This document shows, piece by piece, positions 8,928 to 19,525 of a stretch of DNA of 64,000 nt. The translations under genes and the position numbers were made by a program. Location: NCBI GenBank assembly GCA_902615025.1, contig CACMNV010000002.1, forward strand, positions 1 through 64,000. The letters are read 5' to 3'. A model generated the notes under the pieces. That model worked only from the letters and a program-made list of their open reading frames with translations. It was not told the DNA's origin and searched no databases. How positions within the stretch are numbered: the first letter of the stretch is position 1; every line of letters begins with the position of its first letter. Origin of the DNA: an uncultured SAR116 cluster alpha proteobacterium (GTDB taxonomy: Bacteria > Pseudomonadota > Alphaproteobacteria > Puniceispirillales > Marisalimonadaceae).

Positions 8928-8968
8928 AATATACAAGATCATAATTTGTCTGTATTAAATTTTTATTT

Positions 8969-9046
8969 CAAAAATGTTAAATTTTTATAAACACTTAAAT
9001 TCAGTCAATATAAGGCTAGAGTATAATTAGAAATTTTAAGTCTTTT
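8969..9046 (+). repeat. Repeat C, copy 1 (right part)
   Basis: 78 bp matching 11391-11468 at 76 positions without gaps. In the other copy the last bases are the 3' end of the ACR3 gene. The two copies are direct repeats and bracket the plcP-glycosyltransferase operon. Confidence 0.85.
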
Positions 9047-9068
9047 GATTGGCAAGTCATCTTTAATG
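9047..9068 (-). pseudogene. Fragment of phnM 3' end fused to repeat C
   Basis: GATTGGCAAGTCATCTTTAA at the start of this stretch matches 12554-12575, inside the 3' end of the intact phnM, with one difference over 22 bp. On the reverse strand it encodes IKDDLPI, as in PhnM. The region 8969-9068 therefore looks like a deleted copy of the repeat C-ACR3-phnM locus. The stop codon of the adjacent glycosyltransferase-kinase gene (9063-9065) falls inside it. Confidence 0.6.
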
Positions 9069-10457
9069 GATATTATTAAATAAAATTAATCCATGAATTA
9101 CGACCCATAAAATTAATGTTAACATTACAGCAGCTGATCCATAATCTTTAGCTCTTTTAGATAAACCATGATAATCATATGATATTCTGTCAATTGCAGC
9201 TTCTATACTAGAATTTAATAATTCTATGATCAAGACAAGGGAAGTTGTGAAAATCATTAGCACGATTTCAATAGTACTAACTTCGGCAATCAATATTATA
9301 GATAATGAAATTATTGATAAAAACATTTCTTGTCTAAAAGCACTTTCTTCTCTCAAAGCAAAATTTAAACCTGACAACGAGTTTTTAGCCGCATGATATG
9401 CTCTTGTAATCCCAGTATTACCCTTATGAGGATTGTCTTCAATATTATACGTAGTGTCTTTTTTTCTTATGCTTACCAGATAAGACTCAAAGGTTTTACT
9501 TGTTGATACCCATGAAAATGTTTTAGCGTATTCTCTTGGCACTTTTCTTGGTATTAGCAAAGCCTTCTTACATGCTTCTTTTAGGTTAGAATCAAGAATA
9601 CCTGCATTTGAGTTACCAATAACATCTAAAGGACCACTTATAGGGAAAGCCGCAACAGGCAAACCACATGCCATAGCCTCTAATAATACCAAGCCAAATG
9701 TGTCAGTTTTGCTTGGAAAAACAAATATATCCGCCTTGTTATAGTAGTATTCCAACTCTTCTTTACTCTTAGCGCCATGGAAAATAACCTTAGGGTATTT
9801 TTTTTTTAATTCTCTTAATGCAGGGCCGTCTCCTACAACCCATTTTTCATATGGCAGATCTATTTTTAAAAACTCTTCTAAATTTTTTTCTACAGATACT
9901 CTTCCTACATTTAACATAATAGGTTTTTGATTTTTTTTTCTGCCTCTTTTGGGCTTAAAAATCTCTAAATCTACACCTCTTGACCATATTTTAGGGTTGC
10001 TAATTTTGTGTTTTATTAAATCTTTTTTGACTTCTTCTGTAGGAACCATTACAAGATCAGAGCTATTATGAAACCATCTTAAGAATGAATAAGTAATTTT
10101 AAGTGGAAGTTTTGTCCTTGCATGAACATACTCTGGAAATCTCGTATGATAGGCTGATGTAAAAGCTAAACCATTTCTATTAGCATATCCACGCGCGGAA
10201 AGACCTAAAGGACCTTCAGTAGCAATATGTAAACGATCTGGATTAAATTCTCTGATCATAGATGAAACTCTAGCACCAGGGAAAAGAGATAATTTTATTT
10301 CAGGATAAGTTGGACATGGTATTGTTAAAAAACCCTCTGGTGTAATTAACTTTACCTCATGACCAAATTTCTTTAATTGCTTAGATGTCTCATCTAAAGT
10401 TCTTACTACCCCATTGACTTGAGGATACCAAGCGTCTGTTACAATTAAAATTTTCAT
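9063..10457 (-). CDS. Glycosyltransferase (Agt-like GT4) fused to a DgkA-type diacylglycerol kinase
   Basis: 464 residues. Residues 1 to about 335 are a GT4 glycosyltransferase: N-terminal DAWYPQVNGVV, HIATEGPLG, the donor-site block LNVGRVSVEKNL, GDGP, and FVFPSKTDTFGLVLLEAMACG. Residues from about 349 are a DgkA-like integral membrane kinase: ALREESAFRQE, ELLNSSIEAAIDR with Glu412, Asn415 and Glu419 at the spacing of E. coli Glu69, Asn72 and Glu76, then KRAKDYGSAAV. GT4 enzymes next to plcP glycosylate diacylglycerol in phosphate-starved marine and soil bacteria; DgkA phosphorylates the same diacylglycerol back to phosphatidate. The fusion may let one polypeptide decide the fate of diacylglycerol. 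It overlaps plcP by 4 bp. Confidence 0.9.
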   Translation of the reverse strand: MKILIVTDAWYPQVNGVVRTLDETSKQLKKFGHEVKLITPEGFLTIPCPTYPEIKLSLFPGARVSSMIREFNPDRLHIATEGPLGLSARGYANRNGLAFTSAYHTRFPEYVHARTKLPLKITYSFLRWFHNSSDLVMVPTEEVKKDLIKHKISNPKIWSRGVDLEIFKPKRGRKKNQKPIMLNVGRVSVEKNLEEFLKIDLPYEKWVVGDGPALRELKKKYPKVIFHGAKSKEELEYYYNKADIFVFPSKTDTFGLVLLEAMACGLPVAAFPISGPLDVIGNSNAGILDSNLKEACKKALLIPRKVPREYAKTFSWVSTSKTFESYLVSIRKKDTTYNIEDNPHKGNTGITRAYHAAKNSLSGLNFALREESAFRQEMFLSIISLSIILIAEVSTIEIVLMIFTTSLVLIIELLNSSIEAAIDRISYDYHGLSKRAKDYGSAAVMLTLILWVVIHGLILFNNIH

Positions 10458-11254
10458 GCTATTTTTTTAACTTTAGTTAGATCGTTTTGATATAAATGAT
10501 CATGACTCAATTCAGCCCAATTAATAATTTCCAGTTCTCCATTTTGGTGTTCAACTAAAGCTGAAATAGATTCAACCCAATCACCATCATTTGCGTAAAT
10601 TTTATTATTGATTGTTTTCAATTCAGGTTTATGTATATGACCACATACCACACCATCACATCCTCTTCTAGACGCCTCTTTTACCATAAGAGTTTCAAAT
10701 GCATTTATAAAAGAAACTGCTTTTTTAACTTTTAATTTTAAATACTTGGATAGTGACCAATACGGTAATTTAAAAAAACGTCTTATTTTGTTAAACCACC
10801 TATTTAGCCATAATAGAAAAGTATATGCTGAGTCTCCTAAATATGCTAGCCATCTGGCATGTTGCATTACTTCGTCAAAAAGATCACCATGAACTATCCA
10901 TAATTTTTCTTTCTTTGCAGTTATATGAAAAGCCTCATTTTTTATCTTAATATCACCAAATGCAATACCTAAAAAAGTTCTTGCCCCTTCATCGTGATTG
11001 CCTGGAATAAATGTAATTTTTGTGCCTTTTCTAGCTTTTCTTAAAATTTTTTGGATAACATCATTATGTGATTGAGGCCAATACCACTTTTTCATTAAAC
11101 GCCACCCATCTATAATATCACCAACTAAATATAGATATTTACTTTCATTATATTTTAAAAATTCAAGAAGATGTTCAGCTTGTGCACCAGTTGAACCTAA
11201 ATGAATGTCAGAAATCCAAATAGCTCTATAATTTTTATTTTGATACTTATCCAT
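10454..11254 (-). CDS. plcP: PlcP-type metallophosphoesterase (phospholipase C of lipid remodelling)
   Basis: 266 residues, calcineurin-like fold. Metal-site motifs in order: SDIHLG, LVGDIIDGW, PGNHDEG, VHGDLFD and CGHIHKP. Length and sequence match the PlcP family, relatives of UDP-2,3-diacylglucosamine hydrolase that cleave phospholipid headgroups under phosphate limitation and leave diacylglycerol. The gene comes first in a two-gene operon with the glycosyltransferase-DgkA fusion, the expected partner for converting diacylglycerol to glycolipid. The upstream region shares a 50-bp block with the phosphatase gene at 33349. An LpxH-like role is possible but less likely given the partner. Confidence 0.85.
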   Translation of the reverse strand: MDKYQNKNYRAIWISDIHLGSTGAQAEHLLEFLKYNESKYLYLVGDIIDGWRLMKKWYWPQSHNDVIQKILRKARKGTKITFIPGNHDEGARTFLGIAFGDIKIKNEAFHITAKKEKLWIVHGDLFDEVMQHARWLAYLGDSAYTFLLWLNRWFNKIRRFFKLPYWSLSKYLKLKVKKAVSFINAFETLMVKEASRRGCDGVVCGHIHKPELKTINNKIYANDGDWVESISALVEHQNGELEIINWAELSHDHLYQNDLTKVKKIA

Positions 11255-11356: not shown

Positions 11357-11468
11357 ATTTTCATACATATAAATATACTTTTATTGATTACAAAAATATT
11401 AAATTTTTATAAACACTTAAATTCAGTCAATATAAGGCTAGAGTGTAATTAGAAATTTTAAGTCTTTT
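11357..11468 (+). repeat. Repeat C, complete copy (copy 2)
   Basis: The left 50 bp (11357-11406) match 33914-33963 at 48 positions. The right 78 bp (11391-11468) match 8969-9046 at 76 positions. On the reverse strand the left part reads TTGTAA, 16 bp, then TATATG, a plausible promoter reading towards plcP; the right part includes the last codons of the ACR3 gene. The other two copies are partial. Confidence 0.8.
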
Positions 11469-12510
11469 TAAAATATTTTTCTTTAAATTTTAAAGCAACT
11501 GAAACTAGTAATATTAGTATTGGTACTTCGACAAGTGGACCAACGACAGTTGCGAAAGCCTCTTTTGATGCAAGTCCAAAAGTAGCTATTGAAACTGCAA
11601 TAGCTAATTCAAAATTATTTGAAGCAGCTGTGAATGATAAAGAAGTAGCTTTTGGATAATCTATACTCGTAAATTTACTCATACCAAAACTAATAAAAAA
11701 CATAATTAGAAAATATATAATAAGAGGAATTGCTATTAAGATAACATCATAAGGAAGCTTAAAAATTTCATTTCCTTTTAGAGTAAACATAATAATTATT
11801 GTAAACAAAAGCGCAAATAGTGTAATGGGACTTATTCTAGGTATAAATTTTTTTTCATACCATTCCTCTCCAAATTTCTTGACTAATAATGATCTTGTAA
11901 CAAAACCAGCTAAAAATGGAATACCTAGATAAATTATAACTATTTTGGCTACGTATAATATTGAAATATCAAAAATCTGTCCACTAAACCCAAAAAATTC
12001 AGGCAAAAATTTTAAAAAAAACCATGCATAAGGTGCGAAGAAAATAATTTGAAAGATTGAATTAAAGGCAACTAACCCTGCTACATATTCTGAACTCCCC
12101 CTAGCCAAATCATTCCAAACAAGAACCATCGCTATGCATCTTGCTAAACCAATTAATATAACACCAGTCATGTATTCAGGCTTATCAGAGAGAAAAGTAA
12201 CAGCTAAAAAAAACATTAATACAGGACCAATTATCCAATTTTGGAATAAAGACAAAGCTAAGACTTTCTTATCTTTAAATACTTCAATTATTTTTTCATA
12301 TTTCACTTTTGCCAAAGGTGGGTACATCATTAAGATAAGACCTATTGCAATAGGAATATTCGTATTACTATAGGTTATTGAATCAAGAAATTTAGGCATA
12401 TTACTAAAAATATTACCTAAAGCTAAGCCTATAATCATTGCAAGAAATATCCAAAAAGTAAGATATCTATCTAAAAATGAAAGATTTAATTTTTTGTGTT
12501 TAAGATTCAT
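11458..12510 (-). CDS. ACR3-family arsenite efflux permease
   Basis: 350 residues and about ten hydrophobic helices. The family signature around the essential cysteine is present ([16 protein letters not shown]), as are the helix-breaking [20 protein letters not shown] block and the C-terminal [10 protein letters not shown]. It exports arsenite across the inner membrane using the proton gradient. I chose the ATG at 12510, five bases after the phnM stop; an ATG at 12543 would add 11 residues and overlap phnM. No arsenate reductase or ArsR is visible. Its place behind phnM fits a phosphate-starvation set, since arsenate enters through phosphate uptake. Confidence 0.9.
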
Positions 12511-12515
12511 GTTTT

Positions 12516-13667
12516 TTAAGCAACTTCCTGACCATTTACCCATACTTTTCTAATGATTGGCAAATCATCTTTAATGCTTAATCTTACCAAATCTGCTTTT
12601 AAACCTTCTTTGATTAGACCTCTGTCATTCAAGCCAGTTGCTTTACAAGGGTTTGTAGTTACAGCAGAGATACTTTTAGGTAAATTATTTGACCTTATAC
12701 CCCACATTATAGCTGCCATTAATAATGATGACGGAACATAATCAGAACTTAAAATATCAAGAAGGTCTTCATCAATAAGTGATTGAGCTGAAACATTACC
12801 CGAATGAGACCCTCCTCTTACTAAATTTGGAGCTCCCATTATTATTTTCATATTACTACTATGACACTTTGTTGCTGCTTCAAGAGTTGTTGGAAATTCA
12901 GCTAAATTTATACCTTGTGAACAACTCTCTTCTACATCGGAAATTGTAGTATCATCATGACTAGCTAATACTGCATTAATTTTTTTACTAAATTTTATTG
13001 TTTCACTTTTATGTTTTTTACCAAACATTTTTTGTAAATCTTTTAAATGCAAAAAGTGTTGTTCAATCTGTGGTTCTGAAAGACCAAATTTTCCTGATAA
13101 ATAAAGTTTGAACTGTGAAATATCACGAAACTGTCTTTGGCCAGGTGTGTGATCCATTAGGCTTACTATTTTTACCTTATCTTGAGTATTAAACTCTTCT
13201 AATTCTTGAATTAAATTTTCTGAACATATTTCAGCTCTTAGATGGATAAAATGGTCAATCTTAAACGATTTTTCTTTTGATAATTTATTAATAGAAGTAG
13301 CTGTTTCTCTTGCATATTTGTCATATCTATGTACACCATCTTTGTTTATAGATCCTACTCTTAAAGCATCGAACACTGTTGTAATTCCCACAGATGCTAA
13401 TTCACCATCATGAGCTATAAGAGCATTATTTATAGGCCAATTAACTCCAGGTCTAGGTTTCATATGTCTTTCTAAGTTGTCTGTGTGTAATTCTACTAAA
13501 CCTGGGATTAAATAATCTTCATTGCAATCAATAGATCTGGGTATAGAGCTTTTTCCTTTGTTGATACTTTTAATTAGCCCATCTTTTAATTGGACATTTC
13601 CCAAAAAGACTTCGTCATGAGTTACAATATTAATATTATTTAAGATTACGTCAGACAAAATAAACAC
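12516..13667 (-). CDS. phnM: PhnM, alpha-D-ribose 1-methylphosphonate 5-triphosphate diphosphatase
   Basis: Removes pyrophosphate from the C-P lyase intermediate, giving the 5-phosphate used by PhnJ. 383 residues, amidohydrolase superfamily. Motifs: [18 protein letters not shown] (metal-binding HxD variant), [16 protein letters not shown], and [19 protein letters not shown], all diagnostic of PhnM. It is followed closely by the ACR3 gene and is divergent from the DUF1045 gene at 13761. A second, more diverged PhnM lies at 20277. Confidence 0.95.
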
Positions 13668-13693
13668 CTCTAATCTACAAATACAAATCTAAT

Positions 13694-13700
13694 ATTACAG
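13694..13700 (-). promoter_or_regulatory. CTGTAAT heptamer upstream of phnM
   Basis: Lies 27 bp before the phnM start, in the 93-bp region shared with the divergent DUF1045 gene. It is the same heptamer as before plcP and phnC. A regulatory role is inference from recurrence only. Confidence 0.25.
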
Positions 13701-13760
13701 TTTTTTTAAATGTAAAAAAAATTTAATTAAATTGAAATAAAACTACTATAAATAAAGCTT

Positions 13761-14468
13761 ATGGAAAAAAATTATAAAAGATATGCAATATATTACGCAC
13801 CTATAGAAAATCCGGAGCTTGATCTGTTCGGAAAATGTTGGCTTGGTTGGGATCCTTACAAAGGTGAAGAAACAACAAAGTCAGATCTTTCAAAATTACC
13901 TAGTTTCAAAAAATTTTCTGGCTTAGTTCTTACACCAAAACAATATGGATTTCATGGCACTATAAAAGCTCCATTTAGATTAAAAAATAAATATACGTAT
14001 AATGATCTTGAAAATAAAGTTTGTGAAATATCAAAACAAATACAAAGTTTTCATTTAGATAAATTAGTTATTAAAAAATTAGGTAATTTCATAGCATTAA
14101 CTCCATCTAAAAACCTCAAAGTAAATAACGTATCTAATAAATTTGTAGAAGGATTAGATTTTTTAAGAGATGATCTTTCTGAAGATGAAATTAAAAAAAG
14201 ACATCCTCATAAATTGTCTTTTAACCAAAAAAAAATGCTCTTCAAATGGGGTTATCCTTATGTATTTAATGAATTCAAATTTCATTTAACTCTTACAGGT
14301 AAACTTAGAATTGAAGAAATAGACAATGTTTATAAATATCTTCAAACAATTTTAAAGAGTGTAAATTTAAGAAAAATACACTTTAAAAGTATTTGTATTT
14401 TTGGACAAAAGACTGATGAAAAATTTTATTTTATTAAAAAAATTAATTTTACCCATTCAAAGCATTAA
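13761..14468 (+). CDS. DUF1045 phosphonate-metabolism protein (2H phosphoesterase-like)
   Basis: 235 residues of the family long known as a phosphonate-operon protein of unknown role. Two H-x-T motifs typical of 2H phosphoesterases are seen: YGFHGTIKAPF near residue 65 and FKFHLTLTG near residue 177. N-terminal RYAIYYAPI and WLGWDP are family features. 2H enzymes open cyclic phosphates, and C-P lyase makes a 5-phosphoribosyl 1,2-cyclic phosphate that PhnP normally opens. No phnP is in this cluster, so this protein is a reasonable stand-in; that is inference. It is convergent with phnN with a 20-bp overlap. Confidence 0.85.
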   Translation: MEKNYKRYAIYYAPIENPELDLFGKCWLGWDPYKGEETTKSDLSKLPSFKKFSGLVLTPKQYGFHGTIKAPFRLKNKYTYNDLENKVCEISKQIQSFHLDKLVIKKLGNFIALTPSKNLKVNNVSNKFVEGLDFLRDDLSEDEIKKRHPHKLSFNQKKMLFKWGYPYVFNEFKFHLTLTGKLRIEEIDNVYKYLQTILKSVNLRKIHFKSICIFGQKTDEKFYFIKKINFTHSKH

Positions 14469-14985
14469 TTAAATTATCAACTCCCGATTCTAAATCAGAG
14501 TCATTTTCGACATAAATTGTATCAGAAGGCAAATTTTCTATTTTTCTATTAAGTCTTTTATTGATTTCATCTTTGTTTTCTCTGTTTCTTATAAGAAGTC
14601 GATTTTCAATATTTTTTTTTGATGCAACAATACAAATAATTTTTGCGTTAGGATATTTTTTTTTTATTTCCTTCAAAGCATGTCTTGAACCATTAAAAAT
14701 TACATTTGTACCTTTTTTTAAGAATTCATCTATTTTTTTTGGGATACCGTAAGATAAGGAATGAGCATCCCAAGTTATCGTAAAAAAGCTATCTTTAACC
14801 TTTTTTTGGAAATCTTTATCGGATATTGATACGTGGTCTTCATTATTGTCATCGGGAGTTCTTGTAATATACCTTTTGACAAAATAAAAATTTTTAAATT
14901 TATCTCTTATTTCGTTTAATAAAGTATCTTTACCAACACCAGAAGCACCTACAATCACAAATAAATTACCATTAAGTTTGTTCAT
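14449..14985 (-). CDS. phnN: PhnN, ribose 1,5-bisphosphate phosphokinase
   Basis: Phosphorylates ribose 1,5-bisphosphate to PRPP, the last step that salvages the C-P lyase sugar. 178 residues of the guanylate-kinase-like fold. The P-loop is GASGVGKDTL, followed by RYITRTPDD (RxxTR base-side motif) and ITWDAHSLSYGIP, which differs from guanylate kinase as expected for PhnN. It is last in the phnGHIJKLN run, 15 bp after phnL. Confidence 0.93.
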   Translation of the reverse strand: MNKLNGNLFVIVGASGVGKDTLLNEIRDKFKNFYFVKRYITRTPDDNNEDHVSISDKDFQKKVKDSFFTITWDAHSLSYGIPKKIDEFLKKGTNVIFNGSRHALKEIKKKYPNAKIICIVASKKNIENRLLIRNRENKDEINKRLNRKIENLPSDTIYVENDSDLESGVDNLINALNG

Positions 14986-15000
14986 CTGATTACAAAATCT

Positions 15001-15666
15001 CTATAAATTTTCTAAATTAACTTCCCTGGTAGCAACTTTGTTTCTAGCTATTTCATCATGGAATATTCCAATTATTGCTGAGCCATTTAGTTTAGCTTTT
15101 TCTATCAAATGCAATACAATATTTTTATTATTGTGGTCCAAACTTGCAGTTGGTTCATCTAAAAGTAGGTATGGGTAATTATGAATAAAACCTCTTGCAA
15201 TATTTACTCTTTGTTGTTCACCTCCAGAGAAAGTTAAAGGAGATAAGTTCCATAAATTTTTAGGAATTTTTAGGATTTCTAAAATTTCTTGTCCTTTTTT
15301 TAATGCTATTTTCTTTTCACATCCAATATCAAGTAAAGGTTCTATTACAACTTCTATTGTTGGCACTCTAGGAACAACTCTTAAGAATTGACTAACATAG
15401 CCTAGCTTATTTTTTCTTAATTTCAAAATATCTCTTGCACTTGATTTTCTAACGTTTACATCTGCGATAAGAACATCACCTTTGCTTATAACATAACTTC
15501 CATATATCAATTTTAGTAAAGTAGATTTACCTGTTCCAGAGTTTCCTGTAAGAGCAACAACTTCCCCTTTATCCACTTTGAAGTTTATATTTTTAAAAAC
15601 ATTTATGTTTGTATTATTTTGATTATAAAGTTCGAAAGATTTATTTAAATTTTTTATTTGTATCAT
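15001..15666 (-). CDS. phnL: PhnL, C-P lyase system ABC-type ATPase
   Basis: 221 residues. Walker A is GNSGTGKST, the signature is FSGGEQQRV, Walker B is YLLLDEPTASL, and the switch His is in IGIFHDE. PhnK and PhnL bind the PhnGHIJ core as ATPase subunits rather than driving transport. It starts right after the phnK stop. The relative order K-L-N is the classical one. Confidence 0.93.
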   Translation of the reverse strand: MIQIKNLNKSFELYNQNNTNINVFKNINFKVDKGEVVALTGNSGTGKSTLLKLIYGSYVISKGDVLIADVNVRKSSARDILKLRKNKLGYVSQFLRVVPRVPTIEVVIEPLLDIGCEKKIALKKGQEILEILKIPKNLWNLSPLTFSGGEQQRVNIARGFIHNYPYLLLDEPTASLDHNNKNIVLHLIEKAKLNGSAIIGIFHDEIARNKVATREVNLENL

Positions 15667-15667
15667 G

Positions 15668-16444
15668 CTACACCTGAAGTACTGAACTTACTAATAATTG
15701 TGAATATTTATGTTGTGGATCATCTAAAACCTGATCACACAAACCAGCTTCTATTACATTTCCATTTTGCATTACAATGATACGATCAGCTAATAGTCTT
15801 ACAACTGCAAGATCATGTGTAACTATTATTGCTGCAATGCCAAGTTCTCTTACAAGGTTTCTCAATAAATCTAAAATTTTTGCTTGAACAGATACGTCCA
15901 AACCCCCAGTAGGTTCGTCCATAAAAATAAGTCTTGGTTTAGTTACTAGGTTTCTTGCAATTTGAAGCCTTTGTTGCATTCCTCCAGAAAAAGTACTTGG
16001 CTTATCGTCAATTCTACTAACATCAATTTCAACTTTTTCTAACCAACTTGAAGCAATCTCGCGAATTTCTCCATAATTTCTATGACCTATTGCCATTAAT
16101 CTTTCCCCAATATTTCCTCCTGCACTTATATTCATTCTGAGACCATCACGAGGATTTTGATGCACAAATGCTAGATCAGATCTTTGAATTAAACGAAGTT
16201 TTGGTTCATCGATTTTAGTGAAATTGAGGATTTTTTTTGATTTATCGTTTAAAAGAATATCTCCTTCATCAACTTTTAAATTTCCATATATACAGTTTAA
16301 TAATGTAGATTTTCCAGAGCCGGATTCGCCAACAATTCCAAGGACCTCACCAGAATTAATATCTAAAGATACATTTTTACACCCTACATTTTGGCCATAG
16401 TATTTGGAAATATTTGAAGCTTTAAATAAGAAATCTTGCATCAT
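15668..16444 (-). CDS. phnK: PhnK, C-P lyase complex ATPase subunit
   Basis: 258 residues when started at the ATG that overlaps the phnJ stop (TAATG). An in-frame ATG at 16507 would run 63 bp into phnJ and add a basic tail not typical of the family. Walker A GESGSGKST, signature TFSGGMQQRLQIARN, Walker B LIFMDEPTGGLD, and VTHDLAVVR are seen. PhnK docks on PhnJ in the E. coli complex and is needed for catalysis in vivo. Confidence 0.94.
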   Translation of the reverse strand: MMQDFLFKASNISKYYGQNVGCKNVSLDINSGEVLGIVGESGSGKSTLLNCIYGNLKVDEGDILLNDKSKKILNFTKIDEPKLRLIQRSDLAFVHQNPRDGLRMNISAGGNIGERLMAIGHRNYGEIREIASSWLEKVEIDVSRIDDKPSTFSGGMQQRLQIARNLVTKPRLIFMDEPTGGLDVSVQAKILDLLRNLVRELGIAAIIVTHDLAVVRLLADRIIVMQNGNVIEAGLCDQVLDDPQHKYSQLLVSSVLQV

Positions 16445-17325
16445 TATTGATCTTCTTCTTTTGAATTTAATTGTGTTTGTTCTTTGCAATAATCCGTGTC
16501 TGAACATATGTATGATCTTTTACCATCATCAGAGACTATAATTTCATCTAAATAACTATCACTGGATCCACATATTGAGCATTTGAAATTGGCTTTCATA
16601 GCTTCAAAAGGATAGTCTTCAAAATCAAGACTTTTAACATTTGTGTAAGGTGGGATAGCATAAATCCTTTGTTCTCTTCCTGCACCAAAAAGTTGAATAG
16701 CTGGATTATTATTCATTTTGGGATTATCAAATTTTGGAATAGGAGAAGGATCTGTAACATAATTACCGTTTGTTTTTACTGGATATGCATATGCTGTCTC
16801 AATATGACCGTGTTTTGCAATATCTTCATAAAGTTTCACAAACATTAATCCGTATTCAGAAAGAGCATGCATTTTTCTTGTTTCTGTCTCTCTAGGTTCT
16901 AAAAATCTGAGAGGTTCTGGAATTGGAACCTGATATACTAATATTTGTTGCTCTTTTAATTTTGTCTCTGGAATTCTATGTCTAGTCTGTATAAGAGATG
17001 CATCGGAGGTTTTTTCAGTTACAGCTACATTTGCAGTTTTTTGAAAAAATTTTCGAATTGATACAGCATTTGTAGTGTCATCTGCACCTTGATCTATCAC
17101 TTTTAAGACATCTTTAGGTATTAAACATGCAGATGTTACCTGAATCCCACCAGTCCCCCAACCATATGGCATTGGCATTTCTCTTGAGGAAAAAGGAACT
17201 TGATATCCAGGAATGCATAAAGCTTTTAATAGCGCTCTCCTAATCATTCTTTTTGTATTTTCATCTAAATAAGCAAAATTATAAATTTGAATATCTATAT
17301 TTTTATCTTTACTCATATCATTCAT
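16444..17325 (-). CDS. phnJ: PhnJ, carbon-phosphorus lyase (radical SAM)
   Basis: The catalytic subunit that cleaves the C-P bond of ribose 1-methylphosphonate 5-phosphate, releasing methane when the substrate is methylphosphonate. 293 residues. Cys249, Cys252, Cys274 and Cys280 follow the CxxC-x21-C-x5-C spacing of E. coli PhnJ (Cys241, 244, 266 and 272), giving three cluster ligands and the thiyl-forming Cys. The core YGWGTGGIQVT and IQLFGAGREQRIYAIPPY segments are well kept. The C-terminus is a little longer and acidic (SKEEDQ). Confidence 0.97.
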   Translation of the reverse strand: MNDMSKDKNIDIQIYNFAYLDENTKRMIRRALLKALCIPGYQVPFSSREMPMPYGWGTGGIQVTSACLIPKDVLKVIDQGADDTTNAVSIRKFFQKTANVAVTEKTSDASLIQTRHRIPETKLKEQQILVYQVPIPEPLRFLEPRETETRKMHALSEYGLMFVKLYEDIAKHGHIETAYAYPVKTNGNYVTDPSPIPKFDNPKMNNNPAIQLFGAGREQRIYAIPPYTNVKSLDFEDYPFEAMKANFKCSICGSSDSYLDEIIVSDDGKRSYICSDTDYCKEQTQLNSKEEDQ

Positions 17326-17326
17326 T

Positions 17327-18406
17327 TTATAACCTTTTTACATTTCGTTTAGCATCAGCCCTAATTTTTCTAATAAGTTCAAGTTCAGATTGAAAGTCAA
17401 CATAATGTGGCAATTTTATATGCTCTAGAAACCCAGTTGCTTGAATATTGTCACAATGTGAAATTACAAACTCCTCATCTTGTGCTGGTGCACCAGAATA
17501 GTCTTCACCTAGTTCCTTCCATCTTAATGCTCTATCAATTAAGGCCATAGCTAGAGCTTTTCTTTCCGTTTGTCCAAATACAAGACCATAGCCTCTTGTA
17601 AATTGTGGAGGTTCAATTTTTGATCCTTGAAATTGATTAACCGTTTCACATTCAGTTAAGATAATTTCTGCAACATTAATATCAAAACCTAATTCAGGTA
17701 TATTAAGTTCAATTTCAACTATACCTATTCTAAGCTCTCCTACAAATGCATGATTTCTTGCATATCCTCTCTGAGTAGAATATGCAAGACCTAGCAAAAA
17801 ACCTTCATCACCTCTTGATAATGCTTGTAATCTAGCTGCACGTGATGTTGGAAAGCTAATAGGCTCTCGAGTAATATCAATAGGATCAAGATTATTGTCT
17901 TTTTCTTTTTGCATTAAATCTTCTTGATTTAAAAAGCTCAAAACATGAGGTACTTTTTTATTTTCAAATTGTTGTGTTGGGCTTAAGGGAGTTTCATTTT
18001 CAGCTAGTAATTTAAAATCTAAAAGTCTATGGGTATAATCAAAAGTAGGACCTAGTTTTTGACCACCTGGTATGTCTTTAAATGTTGCTGAGATGCGTCT
18101 AAGACATAGCATATTAGCTGTATCAATAGGTTTGCTATAACTAAATCTTTTAAGAGTAGTTCTGTAGGCTCTCAACAAAAAAATCGCTTCAATCAAATCA
18201 CCTCTGGATTGTTTTATAGCTAATGCTGCCAAATCTTTATCATAAAGAGATCCTTCAGACATTACTCTATCTACTCCAAGTGTAAGCTGTTCTGTAATTT
18301 GGTTTAGAGAAACATTTGGAACAGAAGGATCGCCTCTTCTTATCTCTGACATCCAAGAGTGTGCATTATCAATTGCTTTCTCTCCACCTTTAACTGCTAC
18401 ATACAT
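17327..18406 (-). CDS. phnI: PhnI, C-P lyase core subunit (purine ribosyl-transfer nucleosidase)
   Basis: 359 residues against 354 in E. coli. With PhnG, H and L it swaps the adenine of ATP for phosphonate to form ribose 1-phosphonate 5-triphosphate. The N-terminus YVAVKGGEKAI, the segment RGDLIEAIFLLRAYRTTL, LGLAYSTQRGYARNHAF and the C-terminal SHCDNIQATGFLEHIKLPHYVDF are typical. It starts just after the phnH stop. Confidence 0.96.
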   Translation of the reverse strand: MYVAVKGGEKAIDNAHSWMSEIRRGDPSVPNVSLNQITEQLTLGVDRVMSEGSLYDKDLAALAIKQSRGDLIEAIFLLRAYRTTLKRFSYSKPIDTANMLCLRRISATFKDIPGGQKLGPTFDYTHRLLDFKLLAENETPLSPTQQFENKKVPHVLSFLNQEDLMQKEKDNNLDPIDITREPISFPTSRAARLQALSRGDEGFLLGLAYSTQRGYARNHAFVGELRIGIVEIELNIPELGFDINVAEIILTECETVNQFQGSKIEPPQFTRGYGLVFGQTERKALAMALIDRALRWKELGEDYSGAPAQDEEFVISHCDNIQATGFLEHIKLPHYVDFQSELELIRKIRADAKRNVKRL

Positions 18407-18979
18407 TTAATACTCCGAATTTGTGACGCTAATTTTTGTTGAACGAGGAATAGATAAAATGTCTAAATCATTTGTAAAATAGAAATCTAAACCTAGAGGA
18501 TAAAGATGACTATTATTAATAAATAGTTCTGGATTAGGTAATTCAATTTGCAGTTTATCTTTTATACCCGGCCCATTAATATTACATTTTATTTTCTTAT
18601 AATTTGACTCTTCTATTATTAAAGTTGCAGATCGTTCTGGATACTCAGGCACTCCAGTTTTGAATTCATCCAAAGGTAGTAAAGATTCCCAATCTCCAAC
18701 TGCAAAATTAGCATTTTGTTTGTCAGAAACAATAGCTCCAGTATTAAAAATTAACCAATCTTTAACTTCGTCTGTACTAAAATCTTTAGAGAGGTAAACA
18801 TTACTTTCATTATCACATAATGTAATCAATATTGTAGCGGCAGCATTTGACAAAATATTTGGTTTTTTAAGTTTAGTGATTTGAAAGTGTCTACCTGGAT
18901 AAGAGGTAGCATTAACTAAAGATCTAAAAGAAATAGAACTATTTATAGATTCTTCTGAAAAATGATAATTATTTTCCAT
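18407..18979 (-). CDS. phnH: PhnH, C-P lyase core subunit
   Basis: 190 residues; E. coli PhnH has 194. FRSLVNATSYPGR near the N-terminus and the C-terminal GLDFYFTND plus IPRSTKI match the family. The ATG is chosen at the TGATG overlap with the phnG stop; a TTG one codon upstream is possible. The protein has a PLP-transferase-like fold without catalytic residues and dimerises within the PhnGHIJ complex. Confidence 0.94.
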   Translation of the reverse strand: MENNYHFSEESINSSISFRSLVNATSYPGRHFQITKLKKPNILSNAAATILITLCDNESNVYLSKDFSTDEVKDWLIFNTGAIVSDKQNANFAVGDWESLLPLDEFKTGVPEYPERSATLIIEESNYKKIKCNINGPGIKDKLQIELPNPELFINNSHLYPLGLDFYFTNDLDILSIPRSTKISVTNSEY

Positions 18980-19419
18980 CAATCACTCTCTCCTCTTACA
19001 AGAGTAAAAAAATCAACCTTAGTAGCTTCAGCTTTTGAAAGAATTTTATCTCTTTTATCTTTTTTAATTTTCTCTAAAGGAATTATAATATTTTCATTAA
19101 CTTCCTTGGACATTTTAGTCTGTAAAAGGGCATCACATACAGCGCTTATTTCAGCTTTTCTTTTACTTCTTCCTTGAACATAACTATGACCAATTGTACC
19201 ACAATCTAATTTTACGGAGCATCTAGTTATTGTGACCTCGCCAATATTAAATTTATCACCAGTAACACCCATTTTCCCTTGGGCCATTATGCTACCAATC
19301 TCAGGTTGTCTTAGCCATTCATAAGAAATTTTTATTTTTTTTTGATCCCAAAGATTTAGCAAATCATTCTGATCAGATATTGCTAACAAACTCATCCAAG
19401 ATTTTCTTTTTTCAATCAT
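18979..19419 (-). CDS. phnG: PhnG, C-P lyase core subunit
   Basis: 146 residues from the ATG at 19419; a TTG at 19443 would add eight. RKSWMSLLAIS, WLRQPEIGSIMAQGKMG, and YVQGRSKRKAEISAVCDALLQ are the expected PhnG blocks. First gene of the phnGHIJKLN run and divergent from the GntR regulator, so the 106 bp between them should hold both promoters. Confidence 0.94.
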   Translation of the reverse strand: MIEKRKSWMSLLAISDQNDLLNLWDQKKIKISYEWLRQPEIGSIMAQGKMGVTGDKFNIGEVTITRCSVKLDCGTIGHSYVQGRSKRKAEISAVCDALLQTKMSKEVNENIIIPLEKIKKDKRDKILSKAEATKVDFFTLVRGESD

Positions 19420-19525
19420 TATAAATATGTCTTTACTATACAACTATACAACTTTTAATTAAATATAGTTATGTTATATTAATTGCACAACATTATTTTT
19501 GTTAAAGTTTTGTTACATAAATTTT
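19420..19525. promoter_or_regulatory. phnG-phnF divergent promoter region
   Basis: Contains the direct repeat ACTATACA-ACTATACA (about 19433-19449) just upstream of phnG and TGTTAAAGTTTTGTTAC, an 11-bp-period repeat, just upstream of phnF. Either could be an operator for PhnF or a degenerate Pho box. The assignment is by position only. Confidence 0.4.

Follow-up and report, generated by a model that had tools for sequence, protein, structure and literature searches.

Why a glycosyltransferase and a diacylglycerol kinase should be joined in one polypeptide, next to an enzyme that would release the lipid on which both could act, is the question raised by a locus of an uncultured SAR116 cluster alphaproteobacterium, situated in the first 64,000 nucleotides of contig CACMNV010000002.1 (the stretch analysed here, referred to as the window). 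The initial annotation had described a GT4-DgkA fusion beside PlcP, and the description holds: an open reading frame of 464 amino acids lies exactly at 9063..10457 on the minus strand, overlapped by plcP, and is identified by its translation, by Pfam and by the same fusion in relatives. All on the minus strand, the gene encodes an Agt-like GT4 half (residues 1-330, 9468..10457), a linker that is probably flexible (residues 331-345, 9423..9467) and a DgkA half (residues 346-464, 9066..9422).

The GT half carries the Pfam domains Glyco_transf_4 (residues 14-165, E 3e-23) and Glycos_transf_1 (residues 169-288, E 6e-23), and GT4 enzymes in the PDB match it over residues 175-325 approximately. In the SAR11 enzyme GTcp, mutation has shown certain residues to be essential, and the UDP-sugar motifs GRVAXEKN and FPSXTDTFG have been described (PMC8231724). 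Matched to these, an alignment recovers the H104 and D252 pair, R160, W316, FPSKTDTFG and GRVSVEKN in the SAR116 protein, the last differing from the GTcp motif by a change of A to S. The DgkA half is a full-length match to DAGK_prokar (PF01219; residues 359-459, E 1e-28, model positions 2-102 of 102), with a score of 99.7 bits against a cut-off of 22.3. E. coli DgkA structures match residues 346-461 in a search of PDB sequences (E 1e-21), and the solved E. coli enzyme can be aligned over the full length of the last 116 residues. The six residues used to assign sequences to DgkA (E28, E69, N72, E76, K94 and D95, in E. coli numbering without the Met) are all found. The initial annotation had reported an intact catalytic Glu/Asn/Glu spacing; equivalents of E28, R32, E34, E69, N72, E76, D80, K94 and D95 are retained throughout, in 22 of 22 distinct fused domains.

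An AlphaFold2 monomer model built from nine sequences (mean pLDDT 78) contains a GT-B domain, for which Foldseek retrieves MshA and PimA structures (best PDB match MshA, 3c4q), followed by an amphipathic helix and three transmembrane-length helices, as in DgkA. The pLDDT falls below 50 at residues 333-364, around the linker, which in the alignment of relatives varies in both length and sequence. The dN/dS values are 0.07-0.12 for the GT half and 0.12-0.15 for the DgkA half, and indicate that purifying selection is acting on both. Both halves look catalytically complete, and a dead kinase domain, which would have told against the initial annotation, is ruled out by the retained catalytic residues together with dN/dS.

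The possibility raised in the initial annotation that close relatives might carry only separate genes does not apply, fused forms being the rule. Full-length fused matches occur in the genome of the window and in 39 of 100 relatives, spread over three families (101 genomes), many of the relatives being incomplete assemblies in which absence carries little weight. DgkA is present, always in single copy, in 47 of the 136 genomes of the order, and in 46 of these the domain is located in an open frame of fused length (464-503 amino acids). It is uncommon across the class as a whole (59 of 386 genomes). Among the named loci, a selection of the best 80 out of over 590 rather than a census, the relatives with 91-100% identity are SAR116 single-cell genomes and assemblies. 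The same fused frame in many independent genomes rules out an assembly or frameshift artefact. PF00781, the other diacylglycerol kinase family, is absent from all 11 genomes in which it was sought, of which three are closed. As DgkA is nearly always fused and PF00781 is absent, diacylglycerol kinase in this order comes almost only with the cassette. The betaine lipid synthesis family BtaA (PF11899), an alternative sink for diacylglycerol (DAG), is likewise absent from 11 of 11 genomes. Two irregular copies were noted. The sole non-fused DgkA among the 47 occurs in a genome with 5% contamination (G011; L204:2005-2499), has no adjoining GT and is a HIMB59-like sequence placed between porin-like and GAPDH-like genes; it may be a contaminant or a genuine solo copy. 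The fused gene of another genome (G089; L205:1340-2479), counted among the 39 relatives above, has an in-frame TAA inside the DgkA half, reflecting either decay of this copy or an error in sequencing.

Directly upstream of the fusion and on the same strand is a gene for a plcP-like metallophosphoesterase of 266 amino acids, of the calcineurin-like type (10454..11254, minus strand; Metallophos E 3e-11), the two overlapping by the four bases ATGA at the start of the fusion. The product stays below the NCBIfam cut-offs for LpxH (44.7 bits versus 134) and, given this and its order with an Agt-like gene, is regarded as a putative PlcP. The neighbourhood search proposed in the initial annotation gave a uniform result, as plcP precedes the GT in all the fused loci read. 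The cassette of the window comes after an island for phosphonate use, with the C-P lyase genes phnM, phnN, phnL, phnK (ABC ATPase), phnJ, phnI, phnH and phnG (12516..19443, minus strand) and, amid these, a TIGR03223 gene on the plus strand (13761-14468), all assigned by NCBIfam and Pfam. In relatives the cassette is found near phnCDE (L192), or has as its neighbour either a PhoR-like gene (L030) or both a PhoR-like and a PstS-like gene (L197). No Pho box beyond chance expectation was detected upstream of plcP in the window; among 20 loci tried, Pho-box-like sites with 9-10 of 10 matches precede plcP in six (L029, L031, L068, L072, L160 and L163). A chance neighbourhood is ruled out by the recurrence of the linkage across lineages and in differing gene orders. 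With both halves apparently complete, plcP upstream and phosphate or phosphonate islands around the cassette, two routes for the DAG released by PlcP are the natural reading. In this form the proposal in the initial annotation that one polypeptide holds both fates of the same lipid is supported by sequence, through the catalytic residues, the plcP linkage and the phosphorus islands.

PlcP-GT pairs with no kinase nearby are widespread in Pseudomonadota, and separate genes in the order plcP-gt-dgkA are found in Burkholderia, Paraburkholderia, Caballeronia, Cupriavidus, Pandoraea, Trinickia and Thiomonas, while the order dgkA-plcP-gt is seen in family f179 (two genomes) and in one assembly from the Gammaproteobacteria (L113). 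Family f11, which is probably HIMB59, as judged from an island content like that in PMC10734472, includes one species with the fused gene and another with split genes, in which the stop is followed by four bases and the dgkA start codon. The fusion in Verticiella has a split form as its nearest relative in the tree. A single origin is rejected, one clade of alphaproteobacterial and Verticiella fusions giving an AU p of 3e-7, a value obtained with a quick tree and for a group named after the tree had been seen. On these trees, the fusion arose at least twice. The GT and DgkA of SAR116 are nearer to those of the betaproteobacterial three-gene operon than to most other alphaproteobacterial GTs, which suggests that the cassette has moved between classes. 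L069:3501-4613, which the GT tree places within the fused clade, has lost the kinase half by a natural deletion: its GT ends right at the point at which the DgkA domain would start, and only the linker and a short vestige are kept. Together with the many kinase-free PlcP-GT pairs, this loss indicates that some species can do without the kinase. A different SAR116 genus has a free-standing, kinase-less Agt-like GT (L198:6192-7190 and L199:5962-6960), which has no plcP within the 13 kb read and adjoins genes for polyphosphate kinase and an exopolyphosphatase-like protein.

We consider it likely that PlcP and the fusion constitute a module for membrane-lipid remodelling during phosphate starvation, in which the kinase half salvages unspent DAG. 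PlcP would cleave phospholipids into DAG and the phospho-headgroup, and the GT half, as an Agt-type retaining GT4 enzyme, would transfer a sugar from a UDP-sugar to DAG and produce a phosphorus-free glycolipid. In the same membrane leaflet the DgkA half would convert DAG that escapes glycosylation into phosphatidate, which could enter CDP-DAG and phospholipid synthesis. The kinase branch would thereby act as a safety valve and a salvage route, supplying essential phospholipids and preventing a build-up of DAG as remodelling proceeds. In E. coli, DgkA forms trimers and has its N-terminus in the cytosol, so the GT half would be expected to face the cytosol, where the UDP-sugars are, and to be carried on a DgkA trimer. 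Supporting this module are the fusion itself, the gene order, the catalytic residues, the purifying selection, the recurrent linkage and fusion, and the lack of a second DAG kinase in the genomes checked; from these we infer the substrates and activities, a joint expression at low phosphate and the placing of the GT on the DgkA trimer. PlcP-Agt is known to produce glycolipids under phosphate stress (PMC4796936, PMC8528852), and in the one pertinent experiment found, phosphate depletion of Pseudomonas putida BIRD-1 led to a joint enrichment of PlcP and DagK (PMC5082522), which by analogy suggests that the kinase probably works while remodelling runs, rather than afterwards. Several points speak against the module: no Pho box was detected upstream of plcP in the window, many PlcP-GT pairs have no kinase and L069 has lost it, relatives of DgkA can act on other lipids, and phosphatidate synthesis spends ATP phosphate in a phosphorus-starved cell, an apparent waste if the branch is more than a minor one. 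A more specific and tentative proposal, which we hold to be possible although rather doubtful, is that the fused protein is a branch-point enzyme that fixes or channels the division of PlcP-derived DAG between glycolipid and phosphatidate, and that the two genes have been fused more than once under selection for a constant ratio.

Other roles for the kinase half have to be weighed against that of salvage. The initial annotation had envisaged a switch that rebuilds phospholipid once phosphate returns and, phosphatidate being a phospholipid precursor, leftover DAG could indeed feed such rebuilding. However, the substrate of DgkA is DAG rather than the glycolipid, the operon contains no gene that would free DAG from glycolipid, such as a linked DAG-releasing glycosidase, and no sensor or regulatory domain was found in the fusion by Pfam search. 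With one transcript and one polypeptide, moreover, the GT is never produced without the kinase. As the cassette regenerates no DAG from glycolipid and the P. putida proteins are co-enriched during depletion, a reversal is unsupported, and we regard the switch as unlikely. Similarly low is the probability given to the idea that the DgkA half mainly anchors the GT in the membrane and acts as a scaffold for its trimerisation, the kinase activity being incidental or lost. Known Agt-type enzymes are peripheral and must reach DAG in the membrane, to which a trimeric membrane domain would hold the GT, and PlcP-GT pairs that do without a kinase are common; a pure anchor would nevertheless have no need for the nine catalytic residues, which are invariant in 22 of 22 domains and under purifying selection, and where the kinase is a separate neighbouring gene it is unable to anchor the GT.

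PF01219 also includes the Gram-positive undecaprenol kinases, and sequences do not reveal the substrate, so that the kinase half might act on undecaprenol or another lipid alcohol and be tied to the GT for co-regulation rather than for a common substrate. The fact that the closest solved relatives are of the E. coli DgkA type, and that the gene is found, in several arrangements, with enzymes that produce or use DAG, makes this quite improbable. Some bacterial lipid GT4 enzymes require anionic lipids for activity, and the fusion would place phosphatidate beside the GT; the kinase might hence provide phosphatidate as an anionic lipid close by, through which the GT stays bound and active as PlcP strips anionic phospholipid from the membrane, an explanation to which we attach only a very slight probability. 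The salvage of unspent DAG accordingly stays the favoured role of the kinase half.

Among the known systems that come closest to the cassette is the PlcP-Agt pair of SAR11 HTCC7211 and of Pseudomonas aeruginosa (PA3219-PA3218) (PMC4796936, PMC8528852, PMC8231724), with which it shares a plcP-like gene followed by an Agt-like GT4 gene, a context of phosphorus acquisition and the GT residues and motifs, whereas the SAR116 GT is fused to a DgkA kinase. The main texts of these three papers and of PMC9239053 do not contain any word starting with 'kinase'. The Burkholderiaceae cluster resembles the SAR116 cassette in its three enzymes and their order, with a DgkA and a GT that are closely related to those of SAR116; in Burkholderia, Paraburkholderia, Cupriavidus, Pandoraea and relatives, unlike SAR116, the three are separate genes. 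E. coli DgkA recycles DAG from osmoregulated glucan synthesis. The SAR116 domain is similar to this enzyme (PDB 3ze3, 3ze4, 2kdc) in being full length and in its helices and all catalytic residues, but the E. coli protein is a free-standing one of 13 kDa, while here the domain forms the C-terminal half of a GT and is accompanied by PlcP. PlcP and a DAG kinase also occur together in P. putida BIRD-1, described there as separate proteins and not as a fusion (PMC5082522). In HIMB59, a pst-phoBR island was reported to contain a glycosyltransferase, a diacylglycerol kinase and 'LpxH', the first two being deemed to have no direct phosphorus function (PMC10734472). The trio is probably agt, dgkA and plcP, and the SAR116 cassette suggests a phosphorus function for the first two as well; no fusion was reported for the HIMB59 islands, in contrast to SAR116, and the island genes would correspond to those of family f11. 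In a search of mainly open-access literature, no paper was found that describes the Burkholderia-type plcP-gt-dgkA cluster or a GT-DgkA fusion; an earlier report in subscription journals is possible.

PlcP-Agt remodelling is an established phosphorus-saving route in marine bacteria, and the new element is a kinase tied to the GT. The fate of DAG that is not glycosylated is little addressed in the PlcP-Agt papers cited. That the kinase is joined to the GT in a marine clade of high abundance, and is encoded next to it in Burkholderiaceae as well as in the HIMB59-like group, makes the DAG branch point a concrete and testable enzyme, and a single molecule may decide what becomes of recycled membrane lipid.

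Two further features adjoin the cassette in the window. The acr3 gene for an arsenite efflux transporter (11458..12543, minus strand; TIGR00832, 436 bits against a cut-off of 282.8) is situated within the phosphonate island, which fits the uptake of arsenate by phosphate-starved cells. The plcP-fusion cassette is also flanked by an 85-bp direct repeat (8962-9046 and 11384-11468, 95% identical), one copy of which overlaps the 3' end of acr3. A structured RNA is not indicated for the repeat, as its fold is no better than that of shuffled sequences. These are its only two copies in the genome, and it is common to relatives of the same genus; other genera lack the repeat and have the cassette placed elsewhere. 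The repeat looks like the scar of an insertion of the cassette next to acr3.
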